From: Henriciella sp.
Lineage (GTDB): Bacteria > Pseudomonadota > Alphaproteobacteria > Caulobacterales > Hyphomonadaceae
Direction of reading: 5' to 3'
DNA: 64,000 nt
NCBI GenBank assembly: GCA_021776655.1
Contig: JAJFFK010000037.1
Span: 1-64,000, forward strand
Notes under the pieces: model-generated
Database searches by the model: none
What the model was told of the DNA's origin: nothing
The model's input: the letters and a program-made list of their open reading frames with translations, nothing else
Translations under genes and position numbers: made by a program
Shown: positions 10,310 to 28,817 of the stretch, piece after piece
Layout: every line of letters starts with the position of its first letter
Position numbering within the stretch: the first letter of the stretch is position 1

Positions 10310-10740
10310 TATAGGCCTGACAATGGCAAAATTGCGAGGGATGCGCGCATTGAAAACATGTTAGATTCGCAATGACTGCAGGGAGGTAAACAAAATTCAT
10401 GCAATTTAGACACCAAATTTGCGGCGCGATCATGCTGATTCTCACAGCCTGAAGGCTGGCCAGATCGGTCATATACCGTCAAGCTGGACCTCGTGAAACG
10501 GACAATTGCCATCTATGCCGGAGTGTTGGCGCATTTCAATCCCAATATGTGTTTTCGGCCAGGCCCTGTGCCAACGGGGCTTGCTTTGTTTGGGTGGAAA
10601 TGGTTCCGGTGCGTTCAGCTGAAATAAGATTTCGACAAGAAAACGAAAACAAGCTGTTTCGCTTCTTTTAGAATCAAACAATGTTTTGGTCGTTTGTCCG
10701 CTAGGCGTGGCGACAAACGCGCGCGACAAAGGAAAAAGCA
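10310..10740. other. Intergenic region upstream of the MGS fusion gene
   Basis: This 430-bp gap separates two divergent genes. It holds only short antisense-type frames with no ribosome-binding site or recognisable motif. It should contain both promoters. Near its right end, CGTTTGTC at 10691-10698 and GACAAACG at 10712-10719 form an 8-bp inverted repeat, 22 bases ahead of the start codon, a possible operator or mRNA hairpin. Confidence 0.5.
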
Positions 10741-12215
10741 TGGCTGGCTCAACTTTACGACAAGACCCGTATTCGAAAATCGATCTGATCGGTTTCAACC
10801 TGAAAATGCTGGCGAAGGGGCACAAGCGGTCGCTTCTGATCAGCGCCGGGGCCTTGGCAGACAAGCAATACCTGCTTGAGGTTTGCCAGAAGATGGCGGC
10901 GATTGGGGTTGGCATATATGCGACGCCGGGTACGCACCGGTTCCTGGCTGAAAATGGGGTTGAATCCGTCGCTGCGCGTAAAATTTCCAGTGATCAGGAA
11001 CCCAACATCCGAACCTTGATCCAGAACGGCAGCGTGGATTTTGTCGTCAATATCCTGACCGGCGATACCACCTATGACGAGGCCTCCGACGCCGCCAGCA
11101 TTCGCTCACTCTCAATCCGGCACGGCATTCCGCTCTATACGGACAGGCAAGTGGCGCGTGAGACGATCGAGCTGGTGCTGAGTGATATTGAAGCAGGAAC
11201 ATTCGATTATGCCATTCGCTCTGATGACAGCCCGTGGGATTTGAAAACCCGATTTCTCGAACTGGTGCGCCAACGTGGAGGTTGGTCAAACCATCACGGC
11301 CATTTTGACAAGGCCTATCTGATCTCACCGGAAAACCTGGCGCTTGGGTTTGCGGACATGGAAAAGAAGTGGGAGCTTTATCGCCACTTGAAAGAAAACT
11401 ACACGCATGAAGACCTGGTTGAGCGAATTTCCCGGGCGCTCGATACAGTCTACCAGCAAGGCGCGCAATATTGCCGGACCATGGTTGATGCGGACAGTAT
11501 TATCGGCCTGAAAGCAATTCACGCGGCGGTTGAGGTCAAAGATCGCTTCAAGGACAAGATCAATTTCGAGATTGGCATTCAGCCGCTTGAAGGTGTGCTC
11601 GAAGAGGCGTCCCGCAGGCAATATTTCGAAGCCTGCAATCTGGCCGATTTCTGCGGCGGCTTGCCGTCACGCGACCGTCCACGTGAGGGCGAGCACCTCG
11701 ATATCGTGATGCAAACGGCGAAAGAGCTGAACAAGATGGTCGAAGTACATGTCGATCAGGAGAATAATCCCTACCAGCATGAGACCGAGCTACTCTGCCT
11801 CAAAACGATTGAGCATGGCATGCAGGGGCGGGTTTACGGCATCCACTCGATCTCTGTTTCGGCCAAGGACGAGAGTGAGCAGAACCGAATCGTTGAGCTC
11901 TGCAAACAAGCTGATATCGGGATTGTTCTCTGTCCATCAGCGGCGCTGAGTATGCGGCAATTGCCAATGCAGGGGCCTTTGCACAATTCCATAGGGCCGT
12001 TTGTGAAGATGAAAGCAGCCGGGGTTCGGACCTATCTCGGCATCGACAATATTGCTGACCTGTTCATGCCGGTCGTCGATGGTGATATGTGGACAGAGGT
12101 CCGGATGCTGATGGAAGCGTGTCGCCACTATGATCTGGAAGAGATCGCAGACTGGGCCACGATGCCGCCGGTTCATGTGGTTAACGCAGACGCCAGCAGG
12201 TTTGCAGCGGAGTAG
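10741..12215 (+). CDS. MGS-like domain fused to cytosine-deaminase-type amidohydrolase
   Basis: A 491-residue two-domain protein. Residues about 25-155 match the MGS-like fold of carbamoyl-phosphate synthase, with the ATPGTHRFL segment, a DFVVNILTGD strand and an IRHGIPLYT strand. In that enzyme the domain binds allosteric nucleotides or ornithine. Residues about 165-490 match the cytosine deaminase branch of metal-dependent amidohydrolases: HHGHFDKA carries the first metal histidines, VEVHVDQENN corresponds to the HCDE segment, and LGIDNI corresponds to the catalytic Asp of the GHDD segment. The likely role is hydrolysis of a cyclic amide or amidine under effector control. AAGGA precedes the start. 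An alpha/beta hydrolase follows 4 bp later. Confidence 0.8.
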
Positions 12216-12219
12216 CTAG

Positions 12220-13131
12220 ATGATAGACAGAACGGCTTTTGGAGCTCACTTTGACCGCATGATGGAAAAGCGTGGGGCCGAGGTTCGGTTCGAACGATTT
12301 GAGTCGGCATCGATACGACACGATGGCAACCGGCTGCAGCTGGATATTATTGAAGTGGATAAGTCCGCACCTACGGTGATATTCGTGCCGGGCACGGCCG
12401 CTTACGGATTGGTTTATGGCGACTATCTTGCCGCGTTGGCTGATCATGGCATGAATGTCGTCAGTTTTGATCCACGCGGGCATGGGCGCAGCAGTGGCCT
12501 GACCGGAAGTTACACGATTGGTGAAATCATTCGTGATGCGCGCGCTGTGACGGCCTATGCGCGGACACGATTTCAGGGTCCGGTCTTCATGTCTGGATCG
12601 AGCCAGGGCGGGATTGTCGCGTTCTATGTCGCGGCGACGGATGAGCCGCTAACCGGTGTGATTTGCCATAATGCATCTGACCTGATGGACCCAGCCAATC
12701 TCGATGTCACCGGAAACCCAAAAACGGTACGCATGATTTCAGGTCTGGTGAGAGGCCTGGCGAAATTATTTCCCAAAGCGCCGATCAAGATGTCTCGTTA
12801 TCTCAACTTGTTGAGCAAAGGCGACAGCCCAGCAAAGCGGCGAATGCTAGCTGATCCGTATATGTTGAAAGTGATCAGATTGCGGGCGCTGGCGTCGCTA
12901 TCCAATACTAGAATGGAACGACCGGTGGAAGACGTGAAAACACCGGTCATGCTTCTACACGCTGGAAATGACGAGATTTTTCCGCAACGCCTAAGCGAAG
13001 ACCTGATCGCGCGGATGAGCTGCGACAAGCATCTGGAAATCTATCCAGGGTTGGGGCATTTCCTGTTTTCAGAACACATAGATGCGGTGCTTCCAGCGAT
13101 CTCTAACTGGGTGAAGCAGAAATCGCTCTAG
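12220..13131 (+). CDS. Alpha/beta hydrolase
   Basis: A 303-residue serine hydrolase without a signal peptide. The nucleophile is Ser128 in the elbow GSSQG, the acid is probably Asp252 in HAGNDEIFP, and the base is His281 in GLGHFLF. PRGHGRSSG at 86-93 and the oxyanion-side PGTAAYG fit the lysophospholipase or monoglyceride lipase type of fold. It starts 4 bp after the MGS-amidohydrolase gene and so is co-transcribed with it; the pair may process one substrate in sequence. Its stop codon overlaps the stop of the convergent gene by 4 bp. The substrate is unknown. Confidence 0.88.
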   Translation: MIDRTAFGAHFDRMMEKRGAEVRFERFESASIRHDGNRLQLDIIEVDKSAPTVIFVPGTAAYGLVYGDYLAALADHGMNVVSFDPRGHGRSSGLTGSYTIGEIIRDARAVTAYARTRFQGPVFMSGSSQGGIVAFYVAATDEPLTGVICHNASDLMDPANLDVTGNPKTVRMISGLVRGLAKLFPKAPIKMSRYLNLLSKGDSPAKRRMLADPYMLKVIRLRALASLSNTRMERPVEDVKTPVMLLHAGNDEIFPQRLSEDLIARMSCDKHLEIYPGLGHFLFSEHIDAVLPAISNWVKQKSL

Positions 13132-13880
13132 AGGCGGCGGATACCCGATACTGGGCCATCCAACAGCAATAAATCACCCCATTTTTGCGCTGTGGCCGTG
13201 ATCTCTACCGGATCAGCAACAAAGGGTAATAGCGCCTTGGAATGCCCAAGACCGTGATCTGTCATGATCATCAGGCGCTTTTGGCTTTGGCGATCCGTGA
13301 CGTAAAAGGCTGGCGGTAAACCACTGCGAATACAAAGACTTGCACATTCCTTGTGGACTTTTCCCTCAGACGGTCGCATCGCGCCGAACCAGCATTTTGT
13401 GTCCAGTATTTCACCGCGCAATGTGACTTGCCCAAGCGGCTCAATCTCTGGAAAGGTGAGATTTGTCGACGTCGGTTCGGGGTCTTCACGGATCCAATCC
13501 ATACCATCGACAACTGCGATCATGGCATGTGTACCGCGTTGAATCAAACTACCTTTTATGATGACCGACTTACCGGATAGGGCGCCGATACGGGCGCTGA
13601 CACCGCATTTCCCGAGGCAGCTGAGAAGGGCAGTACGTGGTCTTCCATCAAGATCAGCGGTGCGGATCATGCTATAGGGTTCAGCGGTTACAGTGCCGCG
13701 CCATTCGCGCACATCCCCTTGATTCCAGGTGCCTTTTCCCGGTCGGTTCTGTCTGAAGGCCACCCCGCCCGCAAGCGCTGCAGTGGCAGTTAATAGGCCA
13801 AGGCCAGCGCCGATAAAGAAGCGTCTGTCGGCTTTCGGTGTGTCATCAGACCAGCCGATAAAGAAGTCATTTTTGCTCAT
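13128..13880 (-). CDS. Exported protein of the multi-Rieske locus, unknown family
   Basis: A 250-residue protein not assigned to a named family. The N-terminus has Arg19-Arg20 in the context DRRFFIG followed by a 20-residue hydrophobic stretch, which fits a Tat-type signal or a membrane anchor. Five cysteines, 88, 92, 163, 179 and 183, occur in LSCLGKC, DTKCWFG and KECASLC. Such spacing could bind a metal, or form disulfides outside the membrane. Two regions look like beta-barrel (OB-like) repeats. It is the last gene of a five-gene operon, 23 bp after the membrane Rieske protein, so it is probably a redox or structural partner of that complex. Confidence 0.8.
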   Translation of the reverse strand: MSKNDFFIGWSDDTPKADRRFFIGAGLGLLTATAALAGGVAFRQNRPGKGTWNQGDVREWRGTVTAEPYSMIRTADLDGRPRTALLSCLGKCGVSARIGALSGKSVIIKGSLIQRGTHAMIAVVDGMDWIREDPEPTSTNLTFPEIEPLGQVTLRGEILDTKCWFGAMRPSEGKVHKECASLCIRSGLPPAFYVTDRQSQKRLMIMTDHGLGHSKALLPFVADPVEITATAQKWGDLLLLDGPVSGIRRL

Positions 13881-13903
13881 TTTGGCTCAAATTCCTGTAC
13901 TTT

Positions 13904-14953
13904 TTACGCATTATTGTGCGTGATCACTGTGGGGTCTTGGTAGGTTCCTGGTGTGTTTGGTGCTGGGTCAACATAGACAATTCCATGCACAATGTGTGTG
14001 GCGTAGGTGGCGATCTTTTCGGTAAATGGGTCCGGCGAGCAGCCATCTTCCATGCGGTACTGAAAGCCGTGCCAGGGGCAGGTGATGCAGCCATCAACAA
14101 TCTTGCCCTCGCCAAGCGGTCCTCCTTGATGGCGGCAGACATTCGACACTGCCGAGATTTTGTCACCATCACGGAACACGGCAATCGCCTCACCCTGTTT
14201 CGGGCGGATGATCTTGGCCCGGCCATCTTGCATGTCAGAGAGGTCAGCAACTTTTAGCCAACCATTCAAGGATGCCGGATTGACCTTGTGCACGCCGCCA
14301 ATCGCGGTTGTAATATGCAGGAGACAAACCGTTCCCGCGCCCGTGCCAAGCAAGATCACGTAGAGCGGGTCTTTTTCAAACTGCAAGGCCCCAAGGGCGA
14401 CGTGTGCGACCAGCAGACCATAGGCCAGATAGACGCCCATATGCAGGGCTTTCCACAGGCCGGGGCCGAGATTGGCGTTCCAGAAATCATGACTGGTCGC
14501 GGCCATCAGGAACAGGATGATGAGGGCAACAAAGCCCAAGACCTCAAAAGGAAAGCCGTTTAGCGACGTATATTCCGGGTTGGAGACGAAGATCGACACG
14601 AGCGGGTTGAGATCGCCAAACCCATGATACCAGAGAATAACCAGACCGGCATGGATGAGCGCGACCAGGAAGGTCGCCACACCAAGGTGGCGGCGATTGT
14701 ACAGGAATGGCTTGAAGCGATCGGTCAATCGCGCCAGCGGCCCAATGCAGAGAATGAAGGTCAGCAAAAGGAAGGCGAGCGTTCCCATTGCGCGGATCAA
14801 AATCTGAATCGGGGTAAAACTCTCACCCGCCGGTTGCATCACTGCGCTGACCCCAACAAAGCTGATGAGGTAGAGCGCGATCCCAGCCAGCATCCAGCGA
14901 TCAAACTGTTTCTTGAACGGAGTCCATTGTACGGCTTTGTAATCGTGGGACAT
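13904..14953 (-). CDS. Ferric-reductase-like membrane protein with C-terminal Rieske domain
   Basis: A 349-residue fusion. Residues 20-215 contain about six membrane segments of the ferric reductase/YedZ type; His89, His101, His171 and His184 lie in membrane helices as two pairs and could ligate two b hemes. Residues about 230-335 form a Rieske domain with Cys273-x-His275 and Cys292-x2-His295, in the soluble ferredoxin style rather than the cytochrome bc1 style. The protein could move electrons between a quinone or heme pool and a soluble donor. Its ATG overlaps the stop of the preceding 92-residue gene as ATGA, so translation is coupled. Confidence 0.88.
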   Translation of the reverse strand: MSHDYKAVQWTPFKKQFDRWMLAGIALYLISFVGVSAVMQPAGESFTPIQILIRAMGTLAFLLLTFILCIGPLARLTDRFKPFLYNRRHLGVATFLVALIHAGLVILWYHGFGDLNPLVSIFVSNPEYTSLNGFPFEVLGFVALIILFLMAATSHDFWNANLGPGLWKALHMGVYLAYGLLVAHVALGALQFEKDPLYVILLGTGAGTVCLLHITTAIGGVHKVNPASLNGWLKVADLSDMQDGRAKIIRPKQGEAIAVFRDGDKISAVSNVCRHQGGPLGEGKIVDGCITCPWHGFQYRMEDGCSPDPFTEKIATYATHIVHGIVYVDPAPNTPGTYQDPTVITHNNA

Positions 14954-15231
14954 CAGGAAAATCCTCTGATTGTCATCCCGGCCAAGCGCAGCGCCGAGCC
15001 GGGACCCCGTATGGCGGTTTCGCCCCCAAGAGACTGGGTCCCGGATATTTGCTGTCGCAAATTCCAGGATGACAGGGTTTTGATGTGCGCCTCGTCAAGC
15101 AACACTTCAGGCAGTGTGTCATTGATTGGCGTATCTGGGCGGTGCTGGATCGCGAGAATCAGGACGGCGATTATCGCTGGGCCGAGGATCAGCCAGATCA
15201 GCAGGTGGGTTCTTTTTTGTGCGCGTTTCAT
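14953..15231 (-). CDS. Small membrane protein with a repeat-derived C-terminus
   Basis: A 92-residue protein. Residues 9-28 form a single membrane helix, and residues 29-51 a short polar region. From about residue 53 to the end the frame is encoded by a palindromic interspersed repeat (14972-15073) whose second copy lies between genes at 57671-57755. The native C-terminus has probably been replaced or extended by the insertion, and the frame stays open to a stop that overlaps the next start codon. Start and stop both overlap neighbouring genes by 4 bp or less, so the gene is a real part of the operon. Function unknown. Confidence 0.75.
   Translation of the reverse strand: MKRAQKRTHLLIWLILGPAIIAVLILAIQHRPDTPINDTLPEVLLDEAHIKTLSSWNLRQQISGTQSLGGETAIRGPGSALRLAGMTIRGFS
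14972..15073. repeat. Palindromic interspersed repeat, copy 1, inside a gene
   Basis: The copy begins with GTCATCCCGG and ends with CCAGGATGAC, so the termini are inverted. Inner arms CGGGACCCC and GGGTCCCGG also pair. The segment CTGGGTCCCGGATATTTGCT is identical to one in the copy at 57671-57755, while the middle differs in sequence and length (102 against 85 bp). This copy lies within the reading frame of the 92-residue membrane protein. Confidence 0.85.
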
Positions 15232-15458
15232 GACACAGGCGGTTCCTTCTGAGTGAACAGCTTAGCGACCATAACCGGCCACAATCCGATCACACCGGGC
15301 ATAATCAACAGGCGGGCGCGCAGCGGCATGCCTTTGCCTTTTGCGGCGGGGTCAATTCGCCCGGCACCCCCAAACATGTAAATGAGCGCAACCACCAGGC
15401 CGAGCGCCGCATACAGGCCTAATCCGGTTACCAAATATCCAGCCGTCTCAATACTCAT
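15228..15458 (-). CDS. Small two-helix membrane protein
   Basis: A 76-residue protein with hydrophobic segments at about 8-29 and 47-64 separated by a basic loop containing AAKGKGMPLRAR. I do not recognise the family. The start codon touches the stop of the glutamate-synthase-like gene at 15458 and its 3' end overlaps the next gene by 4 bp, so it is certainly part of the operon. Tiny membrane subunits in this position often anchor a redox enzyme or shape a quinone site, but that is inference. Confidence 0.78.
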   Translation of the reverse strand: MSIETAGYLVTGLGLYAALGLVVALIYMFGGAGRIDPAAKGKGMPLRARLLIMPGVIGLWPVMVAKLFTQKEPPVS

Positions 15459-17071
15459 CAGCTTAGCCCCGCATAGGCGACGCCGGACAAGTCAGCCATG
15501 TCGCGTTTGAATGTCGTCAGGTCATCTGAGTTGAACTCGCTAAACCTGCTGTGACCACAAGCGCGGGCCATGACTTTCATCAGGCCGGTTGAGGCGTCGA
15601 AGAAATTTTGTAGGCGCTGCGCCGATGGTTCAACCAAGAGGCGCGAGACCAGATGCGGTTTCTGGGTGGCGATGCCGACGGGGCAATTATTGGTGTGGCA
15701 GGCACGCATGGCGATACAGCCAATGGCCTGCATCGCCGAATTGGAAACCGCGATGGCATCGGCGCCAAGACACATGGCTTTGACGAAATCAGCGGGCTTG
15801 CGCAGGCCGCCGGTGATGATCAGCGAGATGTCGCCACGGCCGAGTGTATCGAGGTGCTGGCGCGCGCGGGCCAGCGCCGGGATGGTTGGCACAGAGATAT
15901 TGTCGCGGAAGATCACCGGGGCTGCGCCGGTGCCGCCGCCGCGCCCATCAAGGATAATATAATCGACGCCAACTTCGAGGGCGGCATCAATGTCTTTCTC
16001 AATATGCTGAGCGGAGAGTTTGTAACCGATGGGAATGCCGCCAGTGCGGTCACGCACCTCGTCAGCGAAATCCTTGATCTGGGAGATCTCAGTCCAGTCT
16101 GGAAAGCGCGGTGGAGAGATGGCGGATGTGCCTTCTTCGAGGCCGCGTACCAGCGCGATCTTGCCTTTGACCTTGTTGCCGGGCAGGTGGCCTCCCGTGC
16201 CGGTCTTGGCACCCTGACCGCCTTTGAAATGGAAGGCCTGAACCTTATCGACCTTGTCCCACGAAAAACCGAAACGGGCCGAGGCCAGTTCGTAGAAATA
16301 GCGTGAATTGGCGGCTTGCTCCTCGGCCAACATACCGCCTTCGCCGGAGCAGATACCGGTTCCGGCCAGTTCTGCGCCGCGCGCGAGGGCGACTTTCGCG
16401 GTTTCTGACAGCGCGCCGAAACTCATGTCAGAGACGAAAAGCGGGATGTCGAGTTCTAGCGGTTTCTGGGCGTTCGGGCCGATTACAGTTGCTGTATCGA
16501 CCGGGTCATCGTCGAGCAGAGGCAGCTTGTGCAACTGCGCCGTGATGATTTGAATATCATCCCATTTCGGTAGCTGATCGCCGGGCACGCCCATCGCATC
16601 GACCACGCCGTGATGGCCAACCTTGGACAGGCCGTCGCGGGCATATTGCTGGATCAGGGCGTTGTGCGGTTCGGGGTGCGGGGCGTGGCTGGGGTCTTGG
16701 TAGAGGCCGAGATAATCTTCGCGGCTATAAGGCTGCGGATTGGCCTTGCCCCAGGCGTTGATCTCGTCGGCATCGACCAGAACATTGCCGTCTTTGAGCC
16801 AGCTTTGGAACTTAGGCAGTTTTTCGGAATTCTCGTATGCCGACACACCGCTGTCGAGGCGGTAGTCCCAATTGTGCACGCCGCAAATCAAATTGTCGTT
16901 GCCGTCAACATGGCCATCCGCCATCAGCGCGCCGCGATGCAGACAGCGACCATAGAACACCGAAACCGCCTTATCGAAACGCACAATCACAAGGTCAACT
17001 TCACCAATGATCGCGTATTCAGGCTCGCGATCTTTCAGGTCGTCCCATTTGGCGATGGCGGTTTTTGGCAT
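15458..17071 (-). CDS. Rieske domain fused to glutamate-synthase-like FMN domain
   Basis: A 537-residue fusion and the first gene of the operon. Residues 1-105 form a Rieske domain with Cys43-x-His45 and Cys63-x2-His66. Residues about 150-530 match the FMN-binding central region of glutamate synthase (GltS), with the segment CIAMRACHTNNCP supplying the three cysteines that bind a 3Fe-4S cluster in GltS. No glutaminase domain is present. In GltS this region reduces an imino group made from 2-oxoglutarate and ammonia; here the substrate is unknown and the Rieske domain probably delivers electrons. ATG at 17071 was preferred to the frame start at 17143 because it is preceded by GGGGAT. Confidence 0.9.
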   Translation of the reverse strand: MPKTAIAKWDDLKDREPEYAIIGEVDLVIVRFDKAVSVFYGRCLHRGALMADGHVDGNDNLICGVHNWDYRLDSGVSAYENSEKLPKFQSWLKDGNVLVDADEINAWGKANPQPYSREDYLGLYQDPSHAPHPEPHNALIQQYARDGLSKVGHHGVVDAMGVPGDQLPKWDDIQIITAQLHKLPLLDDDPVDTATVIGPNAQKPLELDIPLFVSDMSFGALSETAKVALARGAELAGTGICSGEGGMLAEEQAANSRYFYELASARFGFSWDKVDKVQAFHFKGGQGAKTGTGGHLPGNKVKGKIALVRGLEEGTSAISPPRFPDWTEISQIKDFADEVRDRTGGIPIGYKLSAQHIEKDIDAALEVGVDYIILDGRGGGTGAAPVIFRDNISVPTIPALARARQHLDTLGRGDISLIITGGLRKPADFVKAMCLGADAIAVSNSAMQAIGCIAMRACHTNNCPVGIATQKPHLVSRLLVEPSAQRLQNFFDASTGLMKVMARACGHSRFSEFNSDDLTTFKRDMADLSGVAYAGLS

Positions 17072-17220
17072 GGATATCCCCGTGATCGTTGAGCTGCGCA
17101 GTAACGAGATGGTCGGCCGTACGCCAATCACGAGACATGACAAAAATATGATCGCCTTTGAAGTGCGGCTTGTCCATGCTTTGATTAGGACGCGGCAACT
17201 TGAAGCGAGGGAAATGCAAC
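17072..17220. promoter_or_regulatory. Divergent promoter region of the multi-Rieske locus
   Basis: This 149-bp gap separates the starts of two Rieske fusion genes that point away from each other. Both transcription units must start here, which ties them to a shared control region. No clear palindromic operator was found by eye. A GAGGG ribosome-binding site precedes the rightward start. Confidence 0.6.
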
Positions 17221-19200
17221 ATGACAGACATGGTTTGGCACAAGGTTGCCGGGTTGGATGAAGTCACTCAGGGCCGAGTCAAATCGGTGACGGCCGGGAC
17301 GCAATCCATCGCGCTGGTGCATTTTGATGGGCAATGGGCGGCGATGGATAATCGCTGTCCGCATCAGGGCGGGCCCTTGGGTGAAGGCTCGATTGAAAAG
17401 GGGCTGGGCGATCAGTGCTGGTTGCGCTGTCCGTGGCATGGCTGGGACTTTGATCCGCTGACCGGCAAGCCGCCGGGCGGGCATGAAGATAGCGGACAGG
17501 ACATGTTCGACGTCGAGCTTCGCGATGACGGGGTCTATGTTGCGGTGCCAGCCATTCCAGAGCGGCCACGCTCGGTCGCTGATGTGATGGCCGAAACGAT
17601 GGTCAATTGGGGCGTCACCTCGGTGTTTGGCATGGTTGGGCATTCCAATCTGGGACTGGCAGATGCGTTGCGGGTGCAGGAAGCCAAGGGTGATTTGCGC
17701 TATTACGGTATCCGGCATGAAGGTGCGGCGGCATTTGCGATCTCGGGCTATGGCAAGCTGACCGGGCATCCGGCGGCGGCGCTGGCCATCGCTGGGCCGG
17801 GGGCGACCAATCTGCTGACCGGGCTGTGGGATGCCAAGGTTGACGGCGCACCGGCGCTGGCGCTGACCGGGCAGGTGCAGGATCAAGTCATCGGCGTGCA
17901 CGCATTTCAGGACATTGATCTGGCAGCGGCGTTTCAATCGGTGACGGTGTTCTCTGAAACGGTGCACACAAATTCCGATCATGCTCTACTGATGACGCAG
18001 GCGATCAAGACGGCGATTGTCCAGCGCGGGGTCGGGCATCTGATTTTCCCGGACAATGTTCAGCCGCAACTGGCAGCTGAGGGCGTTCAAGCGCAAGGGC
18101 CTGCGGGTCGCATGGCAGACCGTGCGGTCGGGCCACCGCCGGGCGCGCTGGCTCAGGCAGCGGCGCTGCTGAAAACGGCGAAACGGCCAATGATCATCGT
18201 TGGCTATGGCGCGCTGGACGGCATGGCTGCGGTGATCGCGCTGGGCGAGCAGTTAAACGCGCCAATCGCGACGACGTTCAAGGCCAAGGGGCAGATCGCC
18301 GATGTGCATCCGCTGGCGGCTGGGGTGATGGGGCGCTCAGGCACGCCGATTGCCAGCTGGTTCATGAATGAGGCGGATTTGCTGCTGGTCTTTGGTGCGA
18401 GCTTCTCAAACCATACCGGGATTTATGATGGCACACCAACGATACAGGTGGATACTGACCCGATGCGTCTGGCCAAGCGTCATCCGGTGAGCGTGCCAGT
18501 GATGGGTGATGTTGCGGTGACAGCAGGCTTGCTCAGCGCGCAGATGAGCACTGGCCATGCGGCGCAGGATGTGCGCAGCGAGGTGGCGGAGCGCTGGCGC
18601 TTGTGGCGGGCTGAAAAGGCAACGCGGGTGCTTGAGGATAATGGCAACGGCGTGTCAGCGGCGGCGCTGTTTGAGGCGCTGTCACGCCATGCCCCGGCGG
18701 AGGCGATCATTCCGGTCGATGTCGGCAATAACACATATTCCTTCGGGCGCTATTTCGAGCCAACTGGTGAGCAACGGGTGTTGATGTCGGGCTATCTCGG
18801 CTCAATCGGGTTCTCATTCCCAGCCGCGATGGGCGCATGGGCCGCGACGCAGGAAGACGGTCCGTACAAGGGCCGTAAAGTGATCTCTGTGTCGGGTGAT
18901 GGCGGCTTTGGCCAATATGCGATGGAGTTCACCACGGCGGTAAAATATGGCATGAACATCACCCATGTGCTGATGAATAATTGCGAACTGGGCAAGATTT
19001 CCAAGGAGCAAAAAGCGGCAGAGTTCGAGGTCTGGCAGACCAGCCTGGTCAATCCGAGTTTTGCTGGCTTTGCGCGAAGTTGCGGCGGCATGGGCGAGCG
19101 GGTCAAAACACGCGAAGAGCTGGACGCGGCGCTGACCAAGGCGATCGCGCATAATGGTCCGGCCCTGATTGAAGTGATGACAGATGCGGAGTTATTGTGA
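17221..19200 (+). CDS. Rieske domain fused to thiamine-diphosphate enzyme
   Basis: A 659-residue fusion. Residues 1-108 are a Rieske domain with Cys46-x-His48 and Cys70-x2-His73. Residues about 118-655 are a complete thiamine-diphosphate enzyme of the acetolactate synthase/pyruvate oxidase group: Glu167 in RHEGAA is the conserved base that activates the cofactor, and the GDG...NN motif that binds it starts near residue 558. The fusion suggests an oxidative decarboxylase or lyase whose carbanion intermediate passes electrons to the iron-sulfur centre. ATG at 17221 follows GAGGG; a TTG at 17200 is less likely. The next gene overlaps its stop. Confidence 0.9.
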   Translation: MTDMVWHKVAGLDEVTQGRVKSVTAGTQSIALVHFDGQWAAMDNRCPHQGGPLGEGSIEKGLGDQCWLRCPWHGWDFDPLTGKPPGGHEDSGQDMFDVELRDDGVYVAVPAIPERPRSVADVMAETMVNWGVTSVFGMVGHSNLGLADALRVQEAKGDLRYYGIRHEGAAAFAISGYGKLTGHPAAALAIAGPGATNLLTGLWDAKVDGAPALALTGQVQDQVIGVHAFQDIDLAAAFQSVTVFSETVHTNSDHALLMTQAIKTAIVQRGVGHLIFPDNVQPQLAAEGVQAQGPAGRMADRAVGPPPGALAQAAALLKTAKRPMIIVGYGALDGMAAVIALGEQLNAPIATTFKAKGQIADVHPLAAGVMGRSGTPIASWFMNEADLLLVFGASFSNHTGIYDGTPTIQVDTDPMRLAKRHPVSVPVMGDVAVTAGLLSAQMSTGHAAQDVRSEVAERWRLWRAEKATRVLEDNGNGVSAAALFEALSRHAPAEAIIPVDVGNNTYSFGRYFEPTGEQRVLMSGYLGSIGFSFPAAMGAWAATQEDGPYKGRKVISVSGDGGFGQYAMEFTTAVKYGMNITHVLMNNCELGKISKEQKAAEFEVWQTSLVNPSFAGFARSCGGMGERVKTREELDAALTKAIAHNGPALIEVMTDAELL

Positions 19201-19604
19201 TGGCTGAGGGGGTGGGCGAGATGACGGGGGGCACATCGCTGGAGGTGCTGCCGTACGGGATTGGCCATCAGTTAAGCGAAGTGCTGGAAGTGATGGCGGT
19301 TGGGATTGACCTGATCGGCGTTGCGATCATTATTTTCGGGTTCAATGTTGCGCTGTTAAAGCTTGGCGCGGCGCTGTTGCATGGCGCGGGTCTGTTCAAA
19401 CGTCTCGGTAATATCGCCGATGCCCGACGCACATTGGGCGCGTATATCCTGACCGGGATCGAGTTCATGATCGCGTCCGACATTATCCACACGGTGATCA
19501 CGCGCGAACTGATGGACTTGTTGTTTGTTGGATTGCTGGTGCTGATCCGGACCGCGATTTCGTTCTTTCTGGGTAAGGAAGTCGCCGAATTGGAGGCGGA
19601 GTAG
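19200..19604 (+). CDS. DUF1622 family membrane protein
   Basis: A 134-residue protein with three hydrophobic segments at about 27-57, 82-100 and 104-122. The pattern GYIL-like AYILTGIEFMIASDIIHT followed by a second short helix is typical of DUF1622, a small inner-membrane family of unknown role. The start overlaps the stop of the Rieske-TPP gene as TGATG, so the two are coupled and it is probably the membrane partner of that enzyme. A perfect 19-bp hairpin follows 37 bp after the stop and probably ends the transcript. Confidence 0.85.
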   Translation: MAEGVGEMTGGTSLEVLPYGIGHQLSEVLEVMAVGIDLIGVAIIIFGFNVALLKLGAALLHGAGLFKRLGNIADARRTLGAYILTGIEFMIASDIIHTVITRELMDLLFVGLLVLIRTAISFFLGKEVAELEAE

Positions 19605-19641
19605 GGATGTGTTCTTGCCCATTCAAGCAGGTTGCATAGCC

Positions 19642-19684
19642 CCCCACCCCAACCCTCCCCTTTTTGGGGAGGGTTGGGGTGGGG
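19642..19684. terminator. Perfect 19-bp G/C-rich hairpin with T loop
   Basis: Arms at 19642-19660 and 19666-19684 are perfectly complementary across 19 bp with a TTTTT loop. The arms consist almost entirely of C on one side and G on the other. There is no T-run after the stem on either strand. The position after a gene pair fits a transcription end, but the sequence type also matches dispersed GGGTTGGGG-type repeats seen between genes in many proteobacteria. Confidence 0.8.
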
Positions 19685-19780
19685 CGTCGCGTCGCGTCAT
19701 TCTGGACAAGGGCGGGCTTTGCCGGGATGGTCGGATCAAACACCGCCCATGGTTAAACGAGGCGGCGCAAAGGAGCGTGT

Positions 19781-21220
19781 ATGAGTGAGGCTGTGACGCC
19801 GCCGCCAATCGGTATCGGGACCAAGATAGCCTATGGCATTGGCGCGGCGGCATATGGCGTCAAGGATGCCGGTTTTGCTTACTTCCTGCTCTTTTTCTAT
19901 ACGGTTGTTATGGGGCTAGAGCCGGGTCTGGTTGGTCTGGTTATTTTTCTGGCACTGGTTCTGGATGCGTTCAGTGATCCAATTGTCGGGTATATGTCGG
20001 ATAATTGGCGCTCAAAATGGGGCCGTCGCCACCCTTTCATGTATGCGGCAGCCGTACCCGTGGCGGTCAGCTTCTTCCTGATCTGGAACCCACCGGACTG
20101 GTCGGACGGCGCGTTGCTGGCCTACATTCTGGTGTTGGCGGTATTGATCCGAACCTTCATCACATTCTTCGAGACGCCAAGCTCGGCCCTGTTGCCGGAG
20201 CTGAGCCAGGATTATTATGAGCGCACCAGCCTGCAAGCGTATCGGCTATACTTTGGCTGGACTGGCGGCAGCCTGATGAGCATCATGATGTTTGGATTGT
20301 TGCTCAAGCCAAATGCCGAGTATTCAATTGGGATGCTGAACCGCGACGGCTACGCGCTGTATGGGATTATCTCGTCATTGCTGATTTTTGCGTCGATCAT
20401 GATTTCTGCTGTCGGAACCCATTCCCGGATTCCATATTTGCGTGAGCCACCTGCGAAGCGGAAACTGTCATTGGGTACTTTGTTTAAGGAAATTTTTGAA
20501 ACGCTGTCGGAGAAATCCTTTTTCGCGATATTCGTCGCGACCTTGTTTGGTGCCGTCGCCTCGGGCCTTTATGGCGCGCTGTCATTTCAGATGCTGCGCT
20601 ATTTCTGGGAGTTTGATGAGGGGCAGATTTTTATCTGGACCGTCACGGTCTTGCTGTCGGCGCTGGGGGCGCTGATCATTGCACCTTTGATGACGCGGTG
20701 GCTGGGCAAGAAACACGCAGTAATGGCGCTGGGGATTGTCGCCTTCAGTATTGCACCTGCGCCAGCGATCTTGCGTCTGTTCAACCTGATGCCGCTGAAC
20801 GGAGATCCGATCCTGTTCCCGCTGGTTTTGAGCATCAACACGATTGATCTTGCGATGATTATCGCGCTGCAAGCCGTGCTGTACTCGATGATTGCTGATC
20901 TGGTTGAACAGAGCGAGCTGAAGACCGGGCGGCGTTCGGAAGGGGTGTTCTATGCGGCGGTGACGTTCACGCGAAAATCGAATAATGGGTTTGGGCTTTT
21001 TGTCGCCGGGATCGTTCTAAGCATTGCGAATTTTCCGGAGAAGGCTGTTCCCGGACAAGTTCCCGAAGCGACGCTATGGACCCTGGGGGCCGGGTTTGGC
21101 TTCTTGCTGTTGCTGCTATGGGGGCTGATGATGGCGGCGATCAGTTTCTACAAGATTGACCGGGCGGGACATGAAGACAATTTGCGCAAACTGGCACAAA
21201 TACAAAGCGCACCGAATTAG
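19781..21220 (+). CDS. GPH-family MFS transporter
   Basis: A 479-residue protein with about twelve membrane helices. The loop motif DNWRSKWGRRHPFMY after helix 2 is the signature of the glycoside-pentoside-hexuronide cation symporter group (MelB-like), and the central GRRSEGVFYA loop also fits. Despite the name, many GPH members in alphaproteobacteria sit with lipid catabolism genes. Here the downstream genes are a hydrolase, a 3-hydroxyacyl-CoA dehydrogenase and acyl-CoA dehydrogenases, so a hydrophobic acid is a plausible load. AAAGGAG precedes the start. A paralogue lies at 46004-47440. Confidence 0.9.
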   Translation: MSEAVTPPPIGIGTKIAYGIGAAAYGVKDAGFAYFLLFFYTVVMGLEPGLVGLVIFLALVLDAFSDPIVGYMSDNWRSKWGRRHPFMYAAAVPVAVSFFLIWNPPDWSDGALLAYILVLAVLIRTFITFFETPSSALLPELSQDYYERTSLQAYRLYFGWTGGSLMSIMMFGLLLKPNAEYSIGMLNRDGYALYGIISSLLIFASIMISAVGTHSRIPYLREPPAKRKLSLGTLFKEIFETLSEKSFFAIFVATLFGAVASGLYGALSFQMLRYFWEFDEGQIFIWTVTVLLSALGALIIAPLMTRWLGKKHAVMALGIVAFSIAPAPAILRLFNLMPLNGDPILFPLVLSINTIDLAMIIALQAVLYSMIADLVEQSELKTGRRSEGVFYAAVTFTRKSNNGFGLFVAGIVLSIANFPEKAVPGQVPEATLWTLGAGFGFLLLLLWGLMMAAISFYKIDRAGHEDNLRKLAQIQSAPN

Positions 21221-21247: not shown

Positions 21248-22150
21248 ATGGCACGGATCAAAGCCAACGGGATTGAATTTGAATATGACGAGATCGGCCC
21301 CAAGCAGGGTGAGCCGCTTGTTCTGGTCATGGGGTTCGGTGCCCAAATGACCAAATGGCCGGACGCGTTTCGGCAAGGTCTGGCCGATGCAGGTTACCGT
21401 GTGATCCGGTTCGATAATCGCGATATTGGCCTGTCGCATCAGTTCGATGAGGCAGGTATGCCGGACATGCCAGCGATTATGCAGGCCACAGGTGCGGGCA
21501 AGGATGCCAGCGATATTCCGGCTTATATTCTTGATGACATGGCCGCCGATGTGGCGGCGCTGATCGAGGCTTTGGGGCTCGGCTCGGCGCATGTCATGGG
21601 CGCGTCTATGGGCGGGATGATTGTTCAGCTTCTTGCGCTCAACCATCCGGGCCGTGTGCGTAGCCTGATCCCGGTGATGACGACATCGAGTGACCCAGAC
21701 CTGCCGCAGGCAACACCGGATGCGATTGCGGCACTGATGACGCCGCCGGCCAGCATGGCCCGCGAGGACGTGATCAAACAAGGCGTGATCGCGCTGACCA
21801 CGATTGGCTCTCACGCCAGCATTATCGATAGTGAGGAGGTGCTGGCTGAAGTGGTCGGCAAGTCATTCGACCGGGCCTATCGACCGATTGGCGTGATGCG
21901 CCAATACGCGGCGATCCTGGCGCAGCCGCGCTGGCATCAGCGGTTAGGTGATGTGAAAGTGCCGACATTGGTCCTGCACGGGGCGGCGGATCCACTGATC
22001 CCGCCCGCCAATGGCCGCGACGTGGCACAGCGGATTACGGGCGCGAAACTCGTCGAGTTGGAGAATTGGGGGCATGATGTCCCGGCGGTGATTATACCGG
22101 AAATTTTGCAGGCTGTGACCGGGTTTCTGGCGCAGGTTGAGTACGCTTAG
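21248..22150 (+). CDS. Alpha/beta hydrolase, RdmC-like
   Basis: A 300-residue hydrolase. The nucleophile elbow is GASMGG with Ser120; the acid is probably Asp in HGAADPLIP and the base His in NWGHDVP near residue 277. RFDNRDIGLS near residue 54 is characteristic of the subgroup that contains the aclacinomycin methylesterase RdmC, and many uncharacterised esterases share it. AGAGGA precedes the start. It lies 27 bp after the transporter and 9 bp before the 3-hydroxyacyl-CoA dehydrogenase, so it is within an operon that may take up and process an ester or lactone. Substrate unknown. Confidence 0.9.
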   Translation: MARIKANGIEFEYDEIGPKQGEPLVLVMGFGAQMTKWPDAFRQGLADAGYRVIRFDNRDIGLSHQFDEAGMPDMPAIMQATGAGKDASDIPAYILDDMAADVAALIEALGLGSAHVMGASMGGMIVQLLALNHPGRVRSLIPVMTTSSDPDLPQATPDAIAALMTPPASMAREDVIKQGVIALTTIGSHASIIDSEEVLAEVVGKSFDRAYRPIGVMRQYAAILAQPRWHQRLGDVKVPTLVLHGAADPLIPPANGRDVAQRITGAKLVELENWGHDVPAVIIPEILQAVTGFLAQVEYA

Positions 22151-22159
22151 GAGAGCATA

Positions 22160-23452
22160 ATGACTGACCCAATCACACTCTCGCCGTCGGAAGTGTCTGA
22201 CTATATTGCCCAAGCGGGCCGCGACGCTTGGCGGGTGCCGGATGTGCCGGTTGATACGCCGCGCCGCACGATCAAGACGGTTGGCGTCATCGGCGCAGGT
22301 ACGATGGGCGGCGGCATTTCGATGAATTTCGCGACCGCCGGGATCAACGTGATCATTCTGGAAATGAAGCAAGAGGCGCTGGATCGCGGCCTTGGCGTGG
22401 TGCGCAAGAATTATCAACGCAGCGCCGACCGTGGCCGCTTCCCGCTGGAAGAAGTTGACGAGCGTATGGCACGCCTGTCGGGCACGCTGAGCATGGAAGA
22501 TTTCGCCGACTGTGATCTGGTCATCGAAGCGGTGTTTGAGGACATGGACCTGAAGAAGAAAATCTTCACCGATCTCGACCGTATCATAAAGCCGGGTGCA
22601 ATTTTGGCGACCAATACGTCAGCGCTGAACATTGATGACATCGCAGCGGTGACCAAGCGGCCTGAGGACGTGATTGGCCTGCATTTCTTCTCACCGGCCA
22701 ATGTGATGAAACTGCTGGAAATCGTACGTGCCGACAAGACGGCTGATGATGTCATCATGACCTGTATGGATCTGGCCAGAACGATCAACAAGATCGCGGC
22801 TCTGGTTGGGGTTTGCCCTGGTTTTGTTGGCAATCGCATCCTGTTTGCACGCCAGGCTCAAGCGCAGAAACTGGTCTATAAGGGCTGTATGCCTTGGGAC
22901 GTAGACGCGGCGCTGAACACGTTTGGCTTCCGCATGGGGCCGTACCAGATGTCGGATATGGCAGGGCTTGATATTGGCTGGAAAAAGGGTGCGACAACCT
23001 CCAACCCGATCCGCGACGCATTGTGCGAGCTTGATCGGCGTGGCCAGAAAACCAGCGCGGGCTATTACGACTATGACGAGAACCGCAAGCCGAGCCCGTC
23101 TGACGTGACCGAAAAGATCATCCGCGATGTGACGGGAGTTGAGCCGGGCGCTGCGCCGTCGCAGGAAGAGATCATCGATATGTGTATTCACCCGATGATC
23201 AACGAGGCGCTGAAAATCCTCGAAGAAGGCAAAGCTCAGCGCGCGTCTGACGTCGATATTGTCTGGCTTAACGGCTATGGCTGGCCTGCCGATAAGGGCG
23301 GGCCGATGCTGTACGGTGATATGGTTGGTGCAGACAAAGTGCTGGCAACGATGGAGCGGCTCGGCACGGATGATGACCGGTTCATGCCGGCTGAAACGTT
23401 GCGCAAACTGGCCAAGCATGGCGGGCGGTTTACCGACGTTCAGCCGGGCTGA
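22160..23452 (+). CDS. 3-hydroxyacyl-CoA dehydrogenase
   Basis: A 430-residue NAD-dependent dehydrogenase. VGVIGAGTMGGG at about 42-53 begins the Rossmann fold, and HFFSPANVMKLLE contains the expected catalytic His. It carries the duplicated C-terminal helical domain, as in the dehydrogenase half of FadB/FadJ, but no crotonase domain, so hydration must come from another protein. About 35 residues precede the Rossmann fold, perhaps a remnant of the FadJ linker. GGAG precedes the ATG. The stop overlaps the start of the GMC oxidoreductase as TGATG, which couples the two. Confidence 0.94.
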   Translation: MTDPITLSPSEVSDYIAQAGRDAWRVPDVPVDTPRRTIKTVGVIGAGTMGGGISMNFATAGINVIILEMKQEALDRGLGVVRKNYQRSADRGRFPLEEVDERMARLSGTLSMEDFADCDLVIEAVFEDMDLKKKIFTDLDRIIKPGAILATNTSALNIDDIAAVTKRPEDVIGLHFFSPANVMKLLEIVRADKTADDVIMTCMDLARTINKIAALVGVCPGFVGNRILFARQAQAQKLVYKGCMPWDVDAALNTFGFRMGPYQMSDMAGLDIGWKKGATTSNPIRDALCELDRRGQKTSAGYYDYDENRKPSPSDVTEKIIRDVTGVEPGAAPSQEEIIDMCIHPMINEALKILEEGKAQRASDVDIVWLNGYGWPADKGGPMLYGDMVGADKVLATMERLGTDDDRFMPAETLRKLAKHGGRFTDVQPG

Positions 23453-25083
23453 TGAGCGTGCCGTCGCCTGCACCATTTGAGGGTGAGTACGACTATATCA
23501 TTGTCGGGGCCGGGTCGGCGGGCTGCGTTGTGGCCAACCGCCTTTCGGCTGATCCCGGCACGCGTGTCCTGTTGCTGGAGGCAGGCGGGCGCGACACTTG
23601 GATCTGGTATCACATTCCGGTTGGGTATCTGTTCGCCATCGGCAATCCACGCGCCGACTGGATGTTTGAGACCGTGGCGGAAGCGGGCTTGAATGGTCGG
23701 GTGCTGGCCTATCCGCGCGGCAAGGTTGTGGGCGGATCGTCGGCGATCAACGCGATGATTTCGATGCGCGGGCAGGCGGCCGATTATGATGGTTGGCGCG
23801 GGTTAGGATTGAACGGCTGGGGCTGGGATGAAGTGCTGCCCGCATTCAAACAGATTGAGGATCACTTTCTGGGCGAAGGCGAGTTTCATGGTGCGGGCGG
23901 TGAATGGCGGGTCGAGCCGCCGCGTGTGCGCTGGCAGGTGCTGGACGCGGTGCGCGAAGCGGCGGCTGAGATTGGCGTCGCGGCGGTCGATGATTTCAAC
24001 ACGGGTGACAATTATGGCTCCGGCTATTTTCATGTGAACCAAAAGCGTGGGCGGCGCTGGTCGGCGGCACGCGGGTTTCTGAAGCCGGTCATGAAGCGTG
24101 CCAATTTGCGGGTGGAAACAGGTGTGTTGAGCGAGGCGGTGGCGTTCGAGGAGGGGCGCGCGAGCGGCGTGATCTTCCGGCGCAGTGGTCAGCGTTATCT
24201 CGCCAAGGCGCGCGGTGAGGTCATCCTGTGCGCCGGGTCGATTGGCTCTGTGCAAGTGTTGCAGCGGTCGGGCATCGGGCCAGCCAATGTGCTGCGCGAG
24301 GCCGGAATTGAGACGCGGAATAACCTGCCGGGCGTCGGGCGTAACCTGCAGGACCATTTGCAACAACGCGCTGTGTATAAAGTGTCTGGCGTGAAGACGC
24401 TCAACGAGACCTATCATTCGCTGTTCGGCAAGCTGGTGATGGGCCTTGATTACGGTCTGCGGCGGCGTGGGCCGCTGACGATGGCGCCGTCGCAGCTCGG
24501 TCTGTTCATGCGCTCTGACCCGGCGCGCGAGCGAGCCAATTTGCAGTTTCATGTGCAGCCATTGTCGCTGGATCGGTTTGGCGACCCGCTGCACAAGTTT
24601 CCGGCGATCACGGCGAGCGCTTGTAATCTGCAACCGACCTCACGTGGGGAGGTTGTGATTGCTTCGGCTGATCCGGAAGCCAAGCCGGTCATCGCGCCGA
24701 ACTATCTGGCAACAGATGAAGACAGGCTCGTCGCGGCCCAAGCGATCCGGATCACGCGTGAGATGATGCGCCAACCGGCACTGGCGAAATATGCGCCGGA
24801 AGAGCTGCTGCCGGGGCCAGAAATTGGCGATGATTCCGGCGCGCTCACCGCCGCTGCTGGCGACATTGGCACGACGATTTTCCATCCCGTCGGGACGGCG
24901 AAAATGGGGACGGCGGATGATGCCCAAGCCGTGGTCGATGAACGTCTGCGCGTGCGCGGGGTTGCGGGTTTGCGGGTGATCGATGCGTCGGTGATGCCGC
25001 TGATTACGTCCGGCAATACCAATACGCCGACGGTGATGATTGCCGCTAAGGGGGCAGGGATGGTGCTGGCTGATCGCAAATAG
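23452..25083 (+). CDS. GMC-family FAD oxidoreductase (alcohol dehydrogenase type)
   Basis: A 543-residue flavoprotein. DYIIVGAGSAGCV near residue 14 binds the ADP part of FAD, GGSSAINAMI near 90 is the first GMC signature, and FHPVGTAKMG near 480 is the C-terminal signature with the active-site His. The family oxidises alcohols such as choline, long-chain or polyethylene glycol alcohols. There is no signal peptide. Coupled to the hydroxyacyl-CoA dehydrogenase and followed by acyl-CoA dehydrogenases, it may oxidise a side-chain or terminal alcohol of the same hydrophobic substrate. The exact alcohol cannot be read from sequence. Confidence 0.92.
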   Translation: MSVPSPAPFEGEYDYIIVGAGSAGCVVANRLSADPGTRVLLLEAGGRDTWIWYHIPVGYLFAIGNPRADWMFETVAEAGLNGRVLAYPRGKVVGGSSAINAMISMRGQAADYDGWRGLGLNGWGWDEVLPAFKQIEDHFLGEGEFHGAGGEWRVEPPRVRWQVLDAVREAAAEIGVAAVDDFNTGDNYGSGYFHVNQKRGRRWSAARGFLKPVMKRANLRVETGVLSEAVAFEEGRASGVIFRRSGQRYLAKARGEVILCAGSIGSVQVLQRSGIGPANVLREAGIETRNNLPGVGRNLQDHLQQRAVYKVSGVKTLNETYHSLFGKLVMGLDYGLRRRGPLTMAPSQLGLFMRSDPARERANLQFHVQPLSLDRFGDPLHKFPAITASACNLQPTSRGEVVIASADPEAKPVIAPNYLATDEDRLVAAQAIRITREMMRQPALAKYAPEELLPGPEIGDDSGALTAAAGDIGTTIFHPVGTAKMGTADDAQAVVDERLRVRGVAGLRVIDASVMPLITSGNTNTPTVMIAAKGAGMVLADRK

Positions 25084-25156
25084 AAAATAGTCCATTTTTT
25101 GCTTTGCAATGACCGTGGGGCAGGCTGTTTTAGTGTTGCAAAACGGGGAGTTGGCC

Positions 25157-26353: not shown

Positions 26354-26363
26354 GAAGGCGGAT

Positions 26364-27437
26364 ATGGAATTTGCATTATCAGACGATCAGAAGATGTTTC
26401 AGGCCTCGGTTAGCGGTTATTTGGAGACCGCATCGCCCTTGGATCGGGTGCGGGAGGTTGCGGATGGTGACCGGGGCGTTGCCGAGGATATTTCGTGCGG
26501 ATTGAGTGAGCTTGGCGCAGGGCAAATCCTGGTGCCGGAGGCGTATGAGGGCTTGGGGCTCGGCCTGCTCGATGCGGCTTTGGTGCAGGAGGCGCTTGGC
26601 GCGGCGGCGGCCCCGGCAACGCATCTGGCGAGCGCGATGGCGGTTATCGGGATTGAAGCGGCGGGGAGCGATGTGCATCAGGCTGAATGGCTGGCGAGGA
26701 TTGGATCAGGTGAGGCTCGTATTGGCGTGGCGATTGGTGAACATGTTGGCGCGCGTGAGGGTGCTGGCGTGACGGCAGCGGATGGCAAACTGACCGGCAA
26801 GAGCCTGTTCGCGCTGGAAACCGCCGGGGCGAGCCATGTTCTGGTCTGTGATCGCTATGGCGGCCTGCATATTGCCAGTATGGGAGACGCAGGATTGGTG
26901 CGCACTGAGCTGGAGACGATTGACCGCACGCGCGACTATGCCGAACTGGTATTTGACGGCGTTGCAGCGACGATGCTGACGGGGCAAGGCGGCGCGGACC
27001 GAATGGTTCTGGTCGGGCGGTTATTGCTGGCGGCAGATACGCTCGGCGCGGCGCAGGTGATGCTCGACAAGGCTGTGGCCTATGCGCTGGAACGCAAGCA
27101 ATTTGGCCGGGTCATTGGCAGCTTTCAGGCGGTCAAACATATGTGCGCCGAGATGGCGGCGCAGCTTGAACCGGCGCGCGCGCTGGTCTGGCACGCCGCG
27201 CATGCGTTTGACGAAGATATGGACGAGGCCGGCGTCATGATCTGTCTCGCCAAGGCGCATCTGGCTGAGGTCGGCACATTTGTGGCGCGGACATCGACCG
27301 AAGTGCATGGCGGGATGGGGTTCACTGATCTGGTGGGCTTACATTATTGGTTCAAGCGGATCGGGGCAAACCGGCAATTACTCGGCGGGCCAGAGCAAAA
27401 TCGCGAGGACGCGGCGCGACGTCAGGGCTGGGCATGA
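26364..27437 (+). CDS. Acyl-CoA dehydrogenase, small-type partner subunit
   Basis: A 357-residue acyl-CoA dehydrogenase relative, shorter than the usual 380-400. The YALERKQFGRVIGSFQAVKH segment and VHGGMGFTD are conserved, but the N-terminal half is divergent and I find no catalytic Glu on helix G or in the C-terminal loop. This is the pattern of the non-catalytic beta subunit in alpha2-beta2 FadE enzymes. ATG at 26364 follows TAGGAAGG, 10 bp after the large-subunit gene; the upstream frame to 26265 overlaps that gene and is not used. Pairing is inferred from order and residues. Confidence 0.9.
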   Translation: MEFALSDDQKMFQASVSGYLETASPLDRVREVADGDRGVAEDISCGLSELGAGQILVPEAYEGLGLGLLDAALVQEALGAAAAPATHLASAMAVIGIEAAGSDVHQAEWLARIGSGEARIGVAIGEHVGAREGAGVTAADGKLTGKSLFALETAGASHVLVCDRYGGLHIASMGDAGLVRTELETIDRTRDYAELVFDGVAATMLTGQGGADRMVLVGRLLLAADTLGAAQVMLDKAVAYALERKQFGRVIGSFQAVKHMCAEMAAQLEPARALVWHAAHAFDEDMDEAGVMICLAKAHLAEVGTFVARTSTEVHGGMGFTDLVGLHYWFKRIGANRQLLGGPEQNREDAARRQGWA

Positions 27438-28796: not shown

Positions 28797-28817
28797 GCCG
28801 TTTGGATATATATAAAG

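Follow-up and report, generated by a model that had tools for sequence, protein, structure and literature searches.

A conserved gene cluster of three Rieske-domain fusion proteins that very probably forms an electron-transfer system

We describe a cluster of seven genes (C to I) at positions 13128-19604 of a 64,000-nucleotide stretch of Henriciella sp. (positions 1 to 64,000 of contig JAJFFK010000037.1; hereinafter the window), which comes from a genome of 2.97 Mb in 47 contigs. Three of its products, D, G and H, each carry a Rieske domain, fused respectively to a six-transmembrane (TM) ferric-reductase-like domain, a GltS-type flavin mononucleotide (FMN) domain and a full-length thiamine diphosphate (ThDP) enzyme. 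Genes for these fusions recur together in other genomes, and the set is very probably an electron-transfer system. As the best explanation of the whole we propose a conserved, horizontally spread redox module in which H and G act as dehydrogenases feeding D, a reading to which we give about an even chance of being right.

Composition of the cluster

The genes have the arrangement C-D-E-F-G, a divergent gap of 149 bp and then H-I, with G, F, E, D and C running leftward from 17071 (the start of G) and H and I running rightward from 17221 (the start of H). D/E and F/G overlap by 1 base each, E/F and H/I by 4 bases each, and C and D are spaced by 23 bases. A first-pass annotation made from the DNA sequence had proposed three Rieske fusions at these positions around the 149-bp divergent gap, and the open reading frames, Pfam matches and invariant ligands bear this out. 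The features are:

13128..13880, minus strand: C, 250-aa membrane-anchored protein with an N-terminal TM helix and two oligonucleotide/oligosaccharide-binding (OB)-like beta-barrel domains (AlphaFold2)
13904..14953, minus strand: D, six-TM ferric-reductase-like (MsrQ-like) domain and C-terminal Rieske domain (Pfam PF01794 and PF00355)
14953..15231, minus strand: E, 92 aa, single TM segment, conserved mostly in its first half, with homologues at the equivalent place in relatives
15228..15458, minus strand: F, 76 aa, two TM segments, adjoining the D and C genes
15458..17071, minus strand: G, Rieske domain and GltS-type FMN domain with a three-Cys [3Fe-4S] motif (Pfam PF00355 and PF01645)
17072..17220, no strand: divergent intergenic region, 149 bases
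17124..17165, plus strand: conserved footprint CCAATCAC ... TGANCG ..., a possible operator (alignment of 8 sequences)
17221..19200, plus strand: H, Rieske domain and full-length ThDP enzyme of the pyruvate-oxidase/acetolactate-synthase type (Pfam, NCBIfam and fold match)
19197..19604, plus strand: I, DUF1622 membrane protein coupled to H (Pfam PF07784), absent from some relatives

In each of the three fusions the Pfam match for the Rieske domain exceeds its cut-off: D scores 60.1 bits for Rieske and 53.9 for Ferric_reduct, G scores 45.3 for Rieske and 299.2 for Glu_synthase, and H scores 62.3 for Rieske with 117.5, 108 and 100.2 for its three TPP_enzyme domains. The C-x-H/C-x2-H ligands are invariant in the alignments of H (24/24), G (22/22) and D (19/19), in none of which do we read the extra cysteine of the bc1 type. 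Ferredoxin-type Rieske centers have a potential of about -0.15 V, and, as the motifs lack the bc1-type cysteine, a low potential is expected in D, G and H. Membership of the Rieske non-heme iron oxygenases was ruled out, as Pfam finds no C-terminal mononuclear-iron catalytic domain in any of the three. At an E-value of 0.001, neither Pfam nor NCBIfam has a family that matches C, E or F as encoded in the window, and a scan for structured RNA returned no Rfam match at the gathering score within 12000-20500.

The best profile and fold matches of H are PoxB, pyruvate:quinone oxidoreductase (PQO) and pyruvate oxidase (the H model has a mean predicted local distance difference test score, or pLDDT, of 85), with PQO 9ev6 and PoxB 3eya as the closest folds, and its ThDP residues and motifs are invariant in 24/24 sequences. 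H falls below the cut-off of every NCBIfam model among the best 25 of the 58 matched, including its best match, the pyruvate oxidase model PRK08611; five models for pyruvate oxidases or dehydrogenases give it 383, 288.6, 279.5, 271.5 and 270.6 bits against cut-offs of 742, 788, 792, 893 and 637.85. From the modeled fold we assign H to the PQO-type ThDP superfamily and predict that it binds a cofactor that is probably flavin adenine dinucleotide (FAD) and oxidizes a 2-oxo acid; the earlier suggestion of a 2-oxo acid oxidase wired by its Rieske domain fits a predicted structure lying nearest PQO. An invariant lysine, Lys592 (24/24), occupies the position of Phe479 in the Lactobacillus pyruvate oxidase, the F479W variant anchoring the register. 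This lysine may mean that H acts on something different from pyruvate, possibly a dicarboxylic 2-oxo acid.

In alignment to GltS, G (537 aa) retains the motifs SGEGG, RFG, QGAK and R plus the three cysteines of the [3Fe-4S] motif, C452, C458 and C463, which are invariant in 22/22 sequences. Pfam matches neither a glutaminase domain nor a C-terminal GXGXG domain in it, and the amination reaction proposed for G by the first-pass annotation is not supported, given that the glutaminase half of GltS is missing. We also rejected G as the cell's own glutamate synthase, as a full-length GltB (1563-aa frame) lies on another contig; the same genome also encodes a third paralogue.

D has six hydrophobic segments, and six histidines outside its Rieske motif are invariant (19/19). 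The AlphaFold2 model of C (pLDDT 87) comprises a single TM helix followed by two OB-like barrels, and the charge pattern around the helix suggests that these barrels are periplasmic. Residues Cys163, His176, Cys179 and Cys183 of C are invariant in 27/27 sequences, and this Cys3-His set may serve as a metal ligand. Pfam matches across 27 members of the C family did not rise above chance level (the best, in a single member, had E 0.026), and no fold identity could be fixed, the OB-type matches being weak (best E 3.3e-4, TM-score about 0.2).

Linkage, co-occurrence and spread

A search with H of 61 genomes, the source genome included, found matches at E < 1e-150 in 15, whereas the best match in the other 46 had an E-value of 1.1e-56, with approximately 30% identity where listed. 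The relatives of the source genome include contigs titled Henriciella and Hyphomonadaceae. Among the 14 relative regions examined, C-D-E-F-G is divergent from H in 10: eight close relatives (L013-L020) keep the gene order of the window, seven of them with I, and two from the same bacterial order with approximately 64% identity in H (L022, L023) have the C-D-E-F-G/H arrangement without I. Two further regions (L021, L024) have H without other cluster genes on the stretch. The remaining two (L025, L026) are cut by contig ends or represent broken copies; H is broken or split in L024, L025 and L026 (as is G in L025), which come from two relatives, at contig ends or frame breaks, reflecting either decay or assembly error. 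Across these 14 regions, conservation of the cluster does not extend to its flanking genes A, B, J, K and L.

A wider scan of genome contigs with the H alignment matched at least 587 stretches, 550 of which encode a relative at E 1e-3, possibly including other Rieske proteins. We named the best 80 of these 550; as some are close kin, the counts that follow are of loci and not of independent events. Across these 80 loci the identity to the window H is 61-85% over the best segment, and their titles span Alpha- and Gammaproteobacteria, Acidobacteriota, Gemmatimonadota, Nitrospirales, Myxococcota/Polyangia and one Leptolyngbyaceae cyanobacterium, with many metagenome bins. By family profiles, H is present at all 80; within 8 kb of it, G is found at 46 loci, D and C at 33 each, F at 32 and E at 21, and D and C are never apart (33/33). 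Restricting the count to the 45 loci flanked by 8 kb or more on each side leaves G at 30, D and C at 24, and G, D and C together at 20. G lies upstream or downstream of H, on the same or the opposite strand (where a locus holds several copies, the orientation counts use the first). The co-conservation of the fusions at issue in the first-pass annotation holds as linkage across many genera and several phyla and as genome-wide co-occurrence, but not as a fixed gene order.

The genome-wide pattern comes from 241 genomes evenly drawn from the class, with completeness of at least 90 requested and the source genome included. At E < 1e-150, H is found in 14 of these and G in 11; C is found in 16 at E < 1e-10, of which 13 reach E < 1e-50 (hereinafter strong C). 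In seven of the G genomes the match takes in the Rieske part; each of them has H, and the same seven are those among the 13 strong-C genomes that have H. The hypergeometric chance, uncorrected for kinship, is 4e-10 for the seven G falling within H, 2e-10 for the seven G within C and 6e-7 for C with H. In two of these genomes (G164, G249), H, G and C lie on three separate contigs. In one further genome (G098), which has H, the G match begins at residue 92 at a contig end, leaving the Rieske part out of view. In the other three (G078, G228, G237), the match begins near residue 126, Pfam identifies two N-terminal CDGSH [2Fe-2S] stretches, and H is missing in 3/3. Our reading of these sequences is a single flavoenzyme that takes either of two [2Fe-2S] plugs, with the Rieske type accompanying H.

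H and G also occur on plasmids and in archaea. A tblastn search at E 1e-120 found H on five plasmids, four of them haloarchaeal (59.9-61.1% identity) and one from Mycobacteroides abscessus (53.0%). Three of these haloarchaeal plasmids encode G as well; its matches begin at residue 3 or 6 and so take in the Rieske part, which Pfam confirmed for one. In Halorarius, a cation/proton antiporter of the CPA1 family and an ion channel are encoded between H and G. In the unrooted H tree, the haloarchaeal sequences fall inside the bacteria beside two Gemmatimonadota with a support of 0.994, a placement that suggests transfer between the domains of life. Two entries in this tree call for care: L069 has an aberrant branch of 6.07 and is disregarded, the weaker of its two H frames (563 and 1172 bits) having been entered; and L049, titled Thermoleophilia, groups with Woeseia-type sequences, so that its label may be a binning error.

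The haloarchaeal H regions (L119-L123, L145) also hold genes for a mercuric-reductase-like protein or dihydrolipoyl dehydrogenase, an M20 hydrolase, TauE and dihydrofolate reductase, in sets that vary by plasmid. merA is annotated around H in two of the four haloarchaeal plasmid regions and the related name dihydrolipoyl dehydrogenase in the other two. Mercury or heavy-metal resistance was weighed on this account as a possible function, but no such family occurs among the 60 largest families.

Promoter motifs and neighboring genes

Other neighbors of H at the 80 named loci include a Na+/H+ exchanger (22 loci), DUF5996 (18), a DUF1622-like protein (9) and an extracytoplasmic function (ECF) sigma factor (9); the families Na_H_Exchanger, DUF5996, sigma-70 regions 2 and 4 and zf-HC2 were confirmed by Pfam on one representative each. 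By clustering, genes for the ECF sigma factor and a zf-HC2 protein are both present at nine loci, and the adjacent sigma/anti-sigma genes indicate stress control in some lineages. A TrkC-like family was tried as a potassium-transport partner and counts as no more than a hint, along with the ion channel beside H in Halorarius, since it occurs at only 4 of the 80 loci and has a TrkH match of 18.5 bits, below the cut-off.

A gapped word recurs upstream of the ECF genes. The pattern GTAACC-N15-NCRTC has 15 matches in 4.19 Mb of strands, nine of them upstream (-120 to 400 bases) of H, G or the antiporter, at L045 (G and H), L047 (G and H), L050, L053, L101, L103 and L140; four control spacings give 5, 3, 3 and 3 matches, with 1, 0, 0 and 0 upstream. 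Six of the nine upstream motifs come from the stretches used for discovery, and the independent ones are the three before H in L045, L047 and L140. The 149-base region of the window has in its place the footprint CCAATCAC...TGANCG, which it has in common with seven relatives.

Elsewhere in the window, an MGS-like domain fused to a PRK06886-type amidohydrolase lies near the cluster (10686-12215) and is not conserved with it. The region 22000-33300 encodes acyl-CoA dehydrogenases, a hydroxyacyl-CoA dehydrogenase-like protein and a Baeyer-Villiger-like monooxygenase, as named by eye from the open reading frames, which suggests a lipid or steroid degradation island.

Electron flow, alternatives and known systems

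We posit that H would be a cytosolic PQO-type ThDP (probably FAD) dehydrogenase of a 2-oxo acid, with its N-terminal low-potential Rieske domain as the electron outlet, taking the place of the C-terminal tail by which PoxB binds the membrane. G would be a cytosolic FMN/[3Fe-4S] flavoprotein that keeps a domain of the 2-oxo-, imino- or amino-acid type and has a Rieske outlet of the same kind. In many Alphaproteobacteria, both would pass electrons to D by Rieske-to-Rieske contact, and D would convey them via the heme(s) of its six-TM domain to one of two acceptors, the quinone pool or, on the far side of the membrane, the putatively periplasmic Cys/His protein C, with E and F perhaps aiding in the anchoring or assembly of D. 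A low Rieske potential suits an acceptor from ThDP/FAD or FMN and a donor to heme or quinone, and hence favors H and G feeding D over an amination. The module would be employed under stress, with ECF sigma control of G and H in some lineages and a CPA-type cation/proton antiporter as its frequent neighbor, and at loci without D and C some other acceptor would have to serve.

Several observations weigh against this scheme. Six of the 13 strong-C genomes are without H and G at the thresholds used, and as F and D stand beside C in all six (L124-L129), F-D-C is also a unit of its own; conversely, 6 of the 14 H genomes have neither G nor C. The single obligatory set of three fusions implied by the first-pass annotation is weakened by these counts. 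Five of the 45 full-flank loci (L031, L040, L056, L086, L096) have H without any partner, and D and C are missing from many loci with G and H, so that D cannot be the sole acceptor. In favor of the scheme, the distances of G and H correlate (r = 0.74 over 44 loci, reached in 0 of 2000 permutations), although this figure still contains the effect of species relatedness. Finally, GTAACC-N15-NCRTC is missing from the window, and ECF control in the organism itself finds no support in its genome, which has 9 motif matches against 12 for a reversed-pattern control.

In one alternative, which takes up the amination idea of the first-pass annotation, the electrons that H gains by oxidizing a 2-oxo acid power a reduction by G, of an imine or otherwise, with D and C as a side branch. 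No other pair is as widely shared as G-H, which also turns up where D and C are not seen (the haloarchaeal plasmids included), G keeps SGEGG, RFG, QGAK, R and the three cysteines of GltS, and Rieske-type G tracks H in the class sample. We nevertheless hold this to be unlikely: G has no glutaminase domain, no ammonia source was noticed (none was searched for), the cell has its full 1563-aa GltB frame elsewhere, and a low-potential Rieske center is a poor reductant for a GltS-type FMN. We are similarly doubtful that F-E-D-C is an independent MsrQ-like unit for transmembrane electron export that merely often lies beside G-H in a stress or redox island. The six strong-C genomes with F-D-C alone speak for such independence, as do the G-H pairs without D or C within 8 kb in Gammaproteobacteria, Nitrospirales and haloarchaea, but G, D and C accompany H at 20 of the 45 full-flank loci in several orders, and strong C is present in 7/7 genomes with Rieske-type G, even where the genes are scattered over three contigs.

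If the Rieske domains were redox sensors switching H, G and D rather than conduits, the ECF sigma/anti-sigma neighbors and the stress control that they indicate in some lineages would find a natural place. This strikes us as quite improbable, with all Rieske ligands invariant, the modules placed at enzyme termini, and a CDGSH domain at the same end of the G relatives, which fits a conduit while still being compatible with a sensor. That three Rieske fusions are neighbors by chance is a negligible prospect, in favor of which we found nothing and which is refuted by linkage under changing gene order and by the genome-wide co-occurrence.

The reading in which H and G feed D can be carried further, to a Rieske 'bus' joining a ThDP enzyme, a GltS-type flavoenzyme and a heme membrane protein in one dedicated chain outside NAD(H) and soluble ferredoxin, whose G-H core would have been exchanged between bacteria and haloarchaea. 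The most daring version of this has G and H acting sequentially on an amino acid and its 2-oxo acid (e.g., glutamate to 2-oxoglutarate to succinate and CO2), with the antiporter and channel genes moving counter-ions and the whole serving as a stress outlet. We advance this extension tentatively, as possible rather than probable.

Should the module operate as proposed, a ThDP decarboxylating dehydrogenase and a GltS-type flavoenzyme would be wired straight into the membrane through Rieske domains, an arrangement for which we know of no precedent among described pathways. Both families are well conserved and found widely, yet their plasmid records give them general names only: H is a 'thiamine pyrophosphate-binding protein' in 5/5 and G a 'glutamate synthase-related protein' in 5/7, the other two being unannotated. 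Substrate, wiring and trigger are open to direct testing through Lys592 of H, the Cys3-His set of C, the exchange of Rieske for CDGSH in G and the promoter motif linked to the ECF sigma factor.

Each enzyme belongs to a known superfamily but fails the membership features of the named families, and searches of an open-access library listed no paper on the combination, as judged by titles and the starts of abstracts, in agreement with the first-pass annotation. H resembles PoxB, PQO and pyruvate oxidase in its three-domain ThDP fold, catalytic Glu region, FQ(E/D) region and GDG...NN motif. However, unlike these, it carries an N-terminal Rieske domain, and its profile match stops at residue 528 of the 572 of PoxB, where H ends, so that the last 44 PoxB residues are without a counterpart. 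G resembles the glutamate synthase large subunit in its FMN-domain motifs and three-Cys [3Fe-4S] motif, but has a Rieske domain in place of the glutaminase and scores 135 bits against an NCBIfam cut-off of 1047. D resembles MsrQ, the heme subunit of MsrPQ, in its Ferric_reduct six-TM domain (E 2.3e-13 to the MsrQ model), and departs from it in the additional Rieske domain and in scoring 50.1 bits against the 130-bit MsrQ equivalog cut-off; it also adjoins C, and a scan confined to ten proteins of the window shows no molybdoenzyme (MsrP). In Caulobacter, the sigma-F motif is GTAACC-N16-CGAA (PMC3511200); the motif found here (GTAACC-N16-CRTC) shares with the sigma-F regulon the -35 element and its spacing to the -10 element, and differs in the -10 element itself, the target genes and the anti-sigma type, which is zf-HC2 here and the membrane protein NrsF there (PMC3511200). 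G also has CDGSH-type relatives, namely a Vibrio fortis plasmid protein (L144:6680-8230) and those of three genomes of the class that lack H (L154-L156): the Glu_synthase domain of the Vibrio protein is 67.7% identical to that of G over residues 134-537, whereas at the N-terminus these relatives have two Pfam matches to CDGSH [2Fe-2S] domains instead of the Rieske domain.

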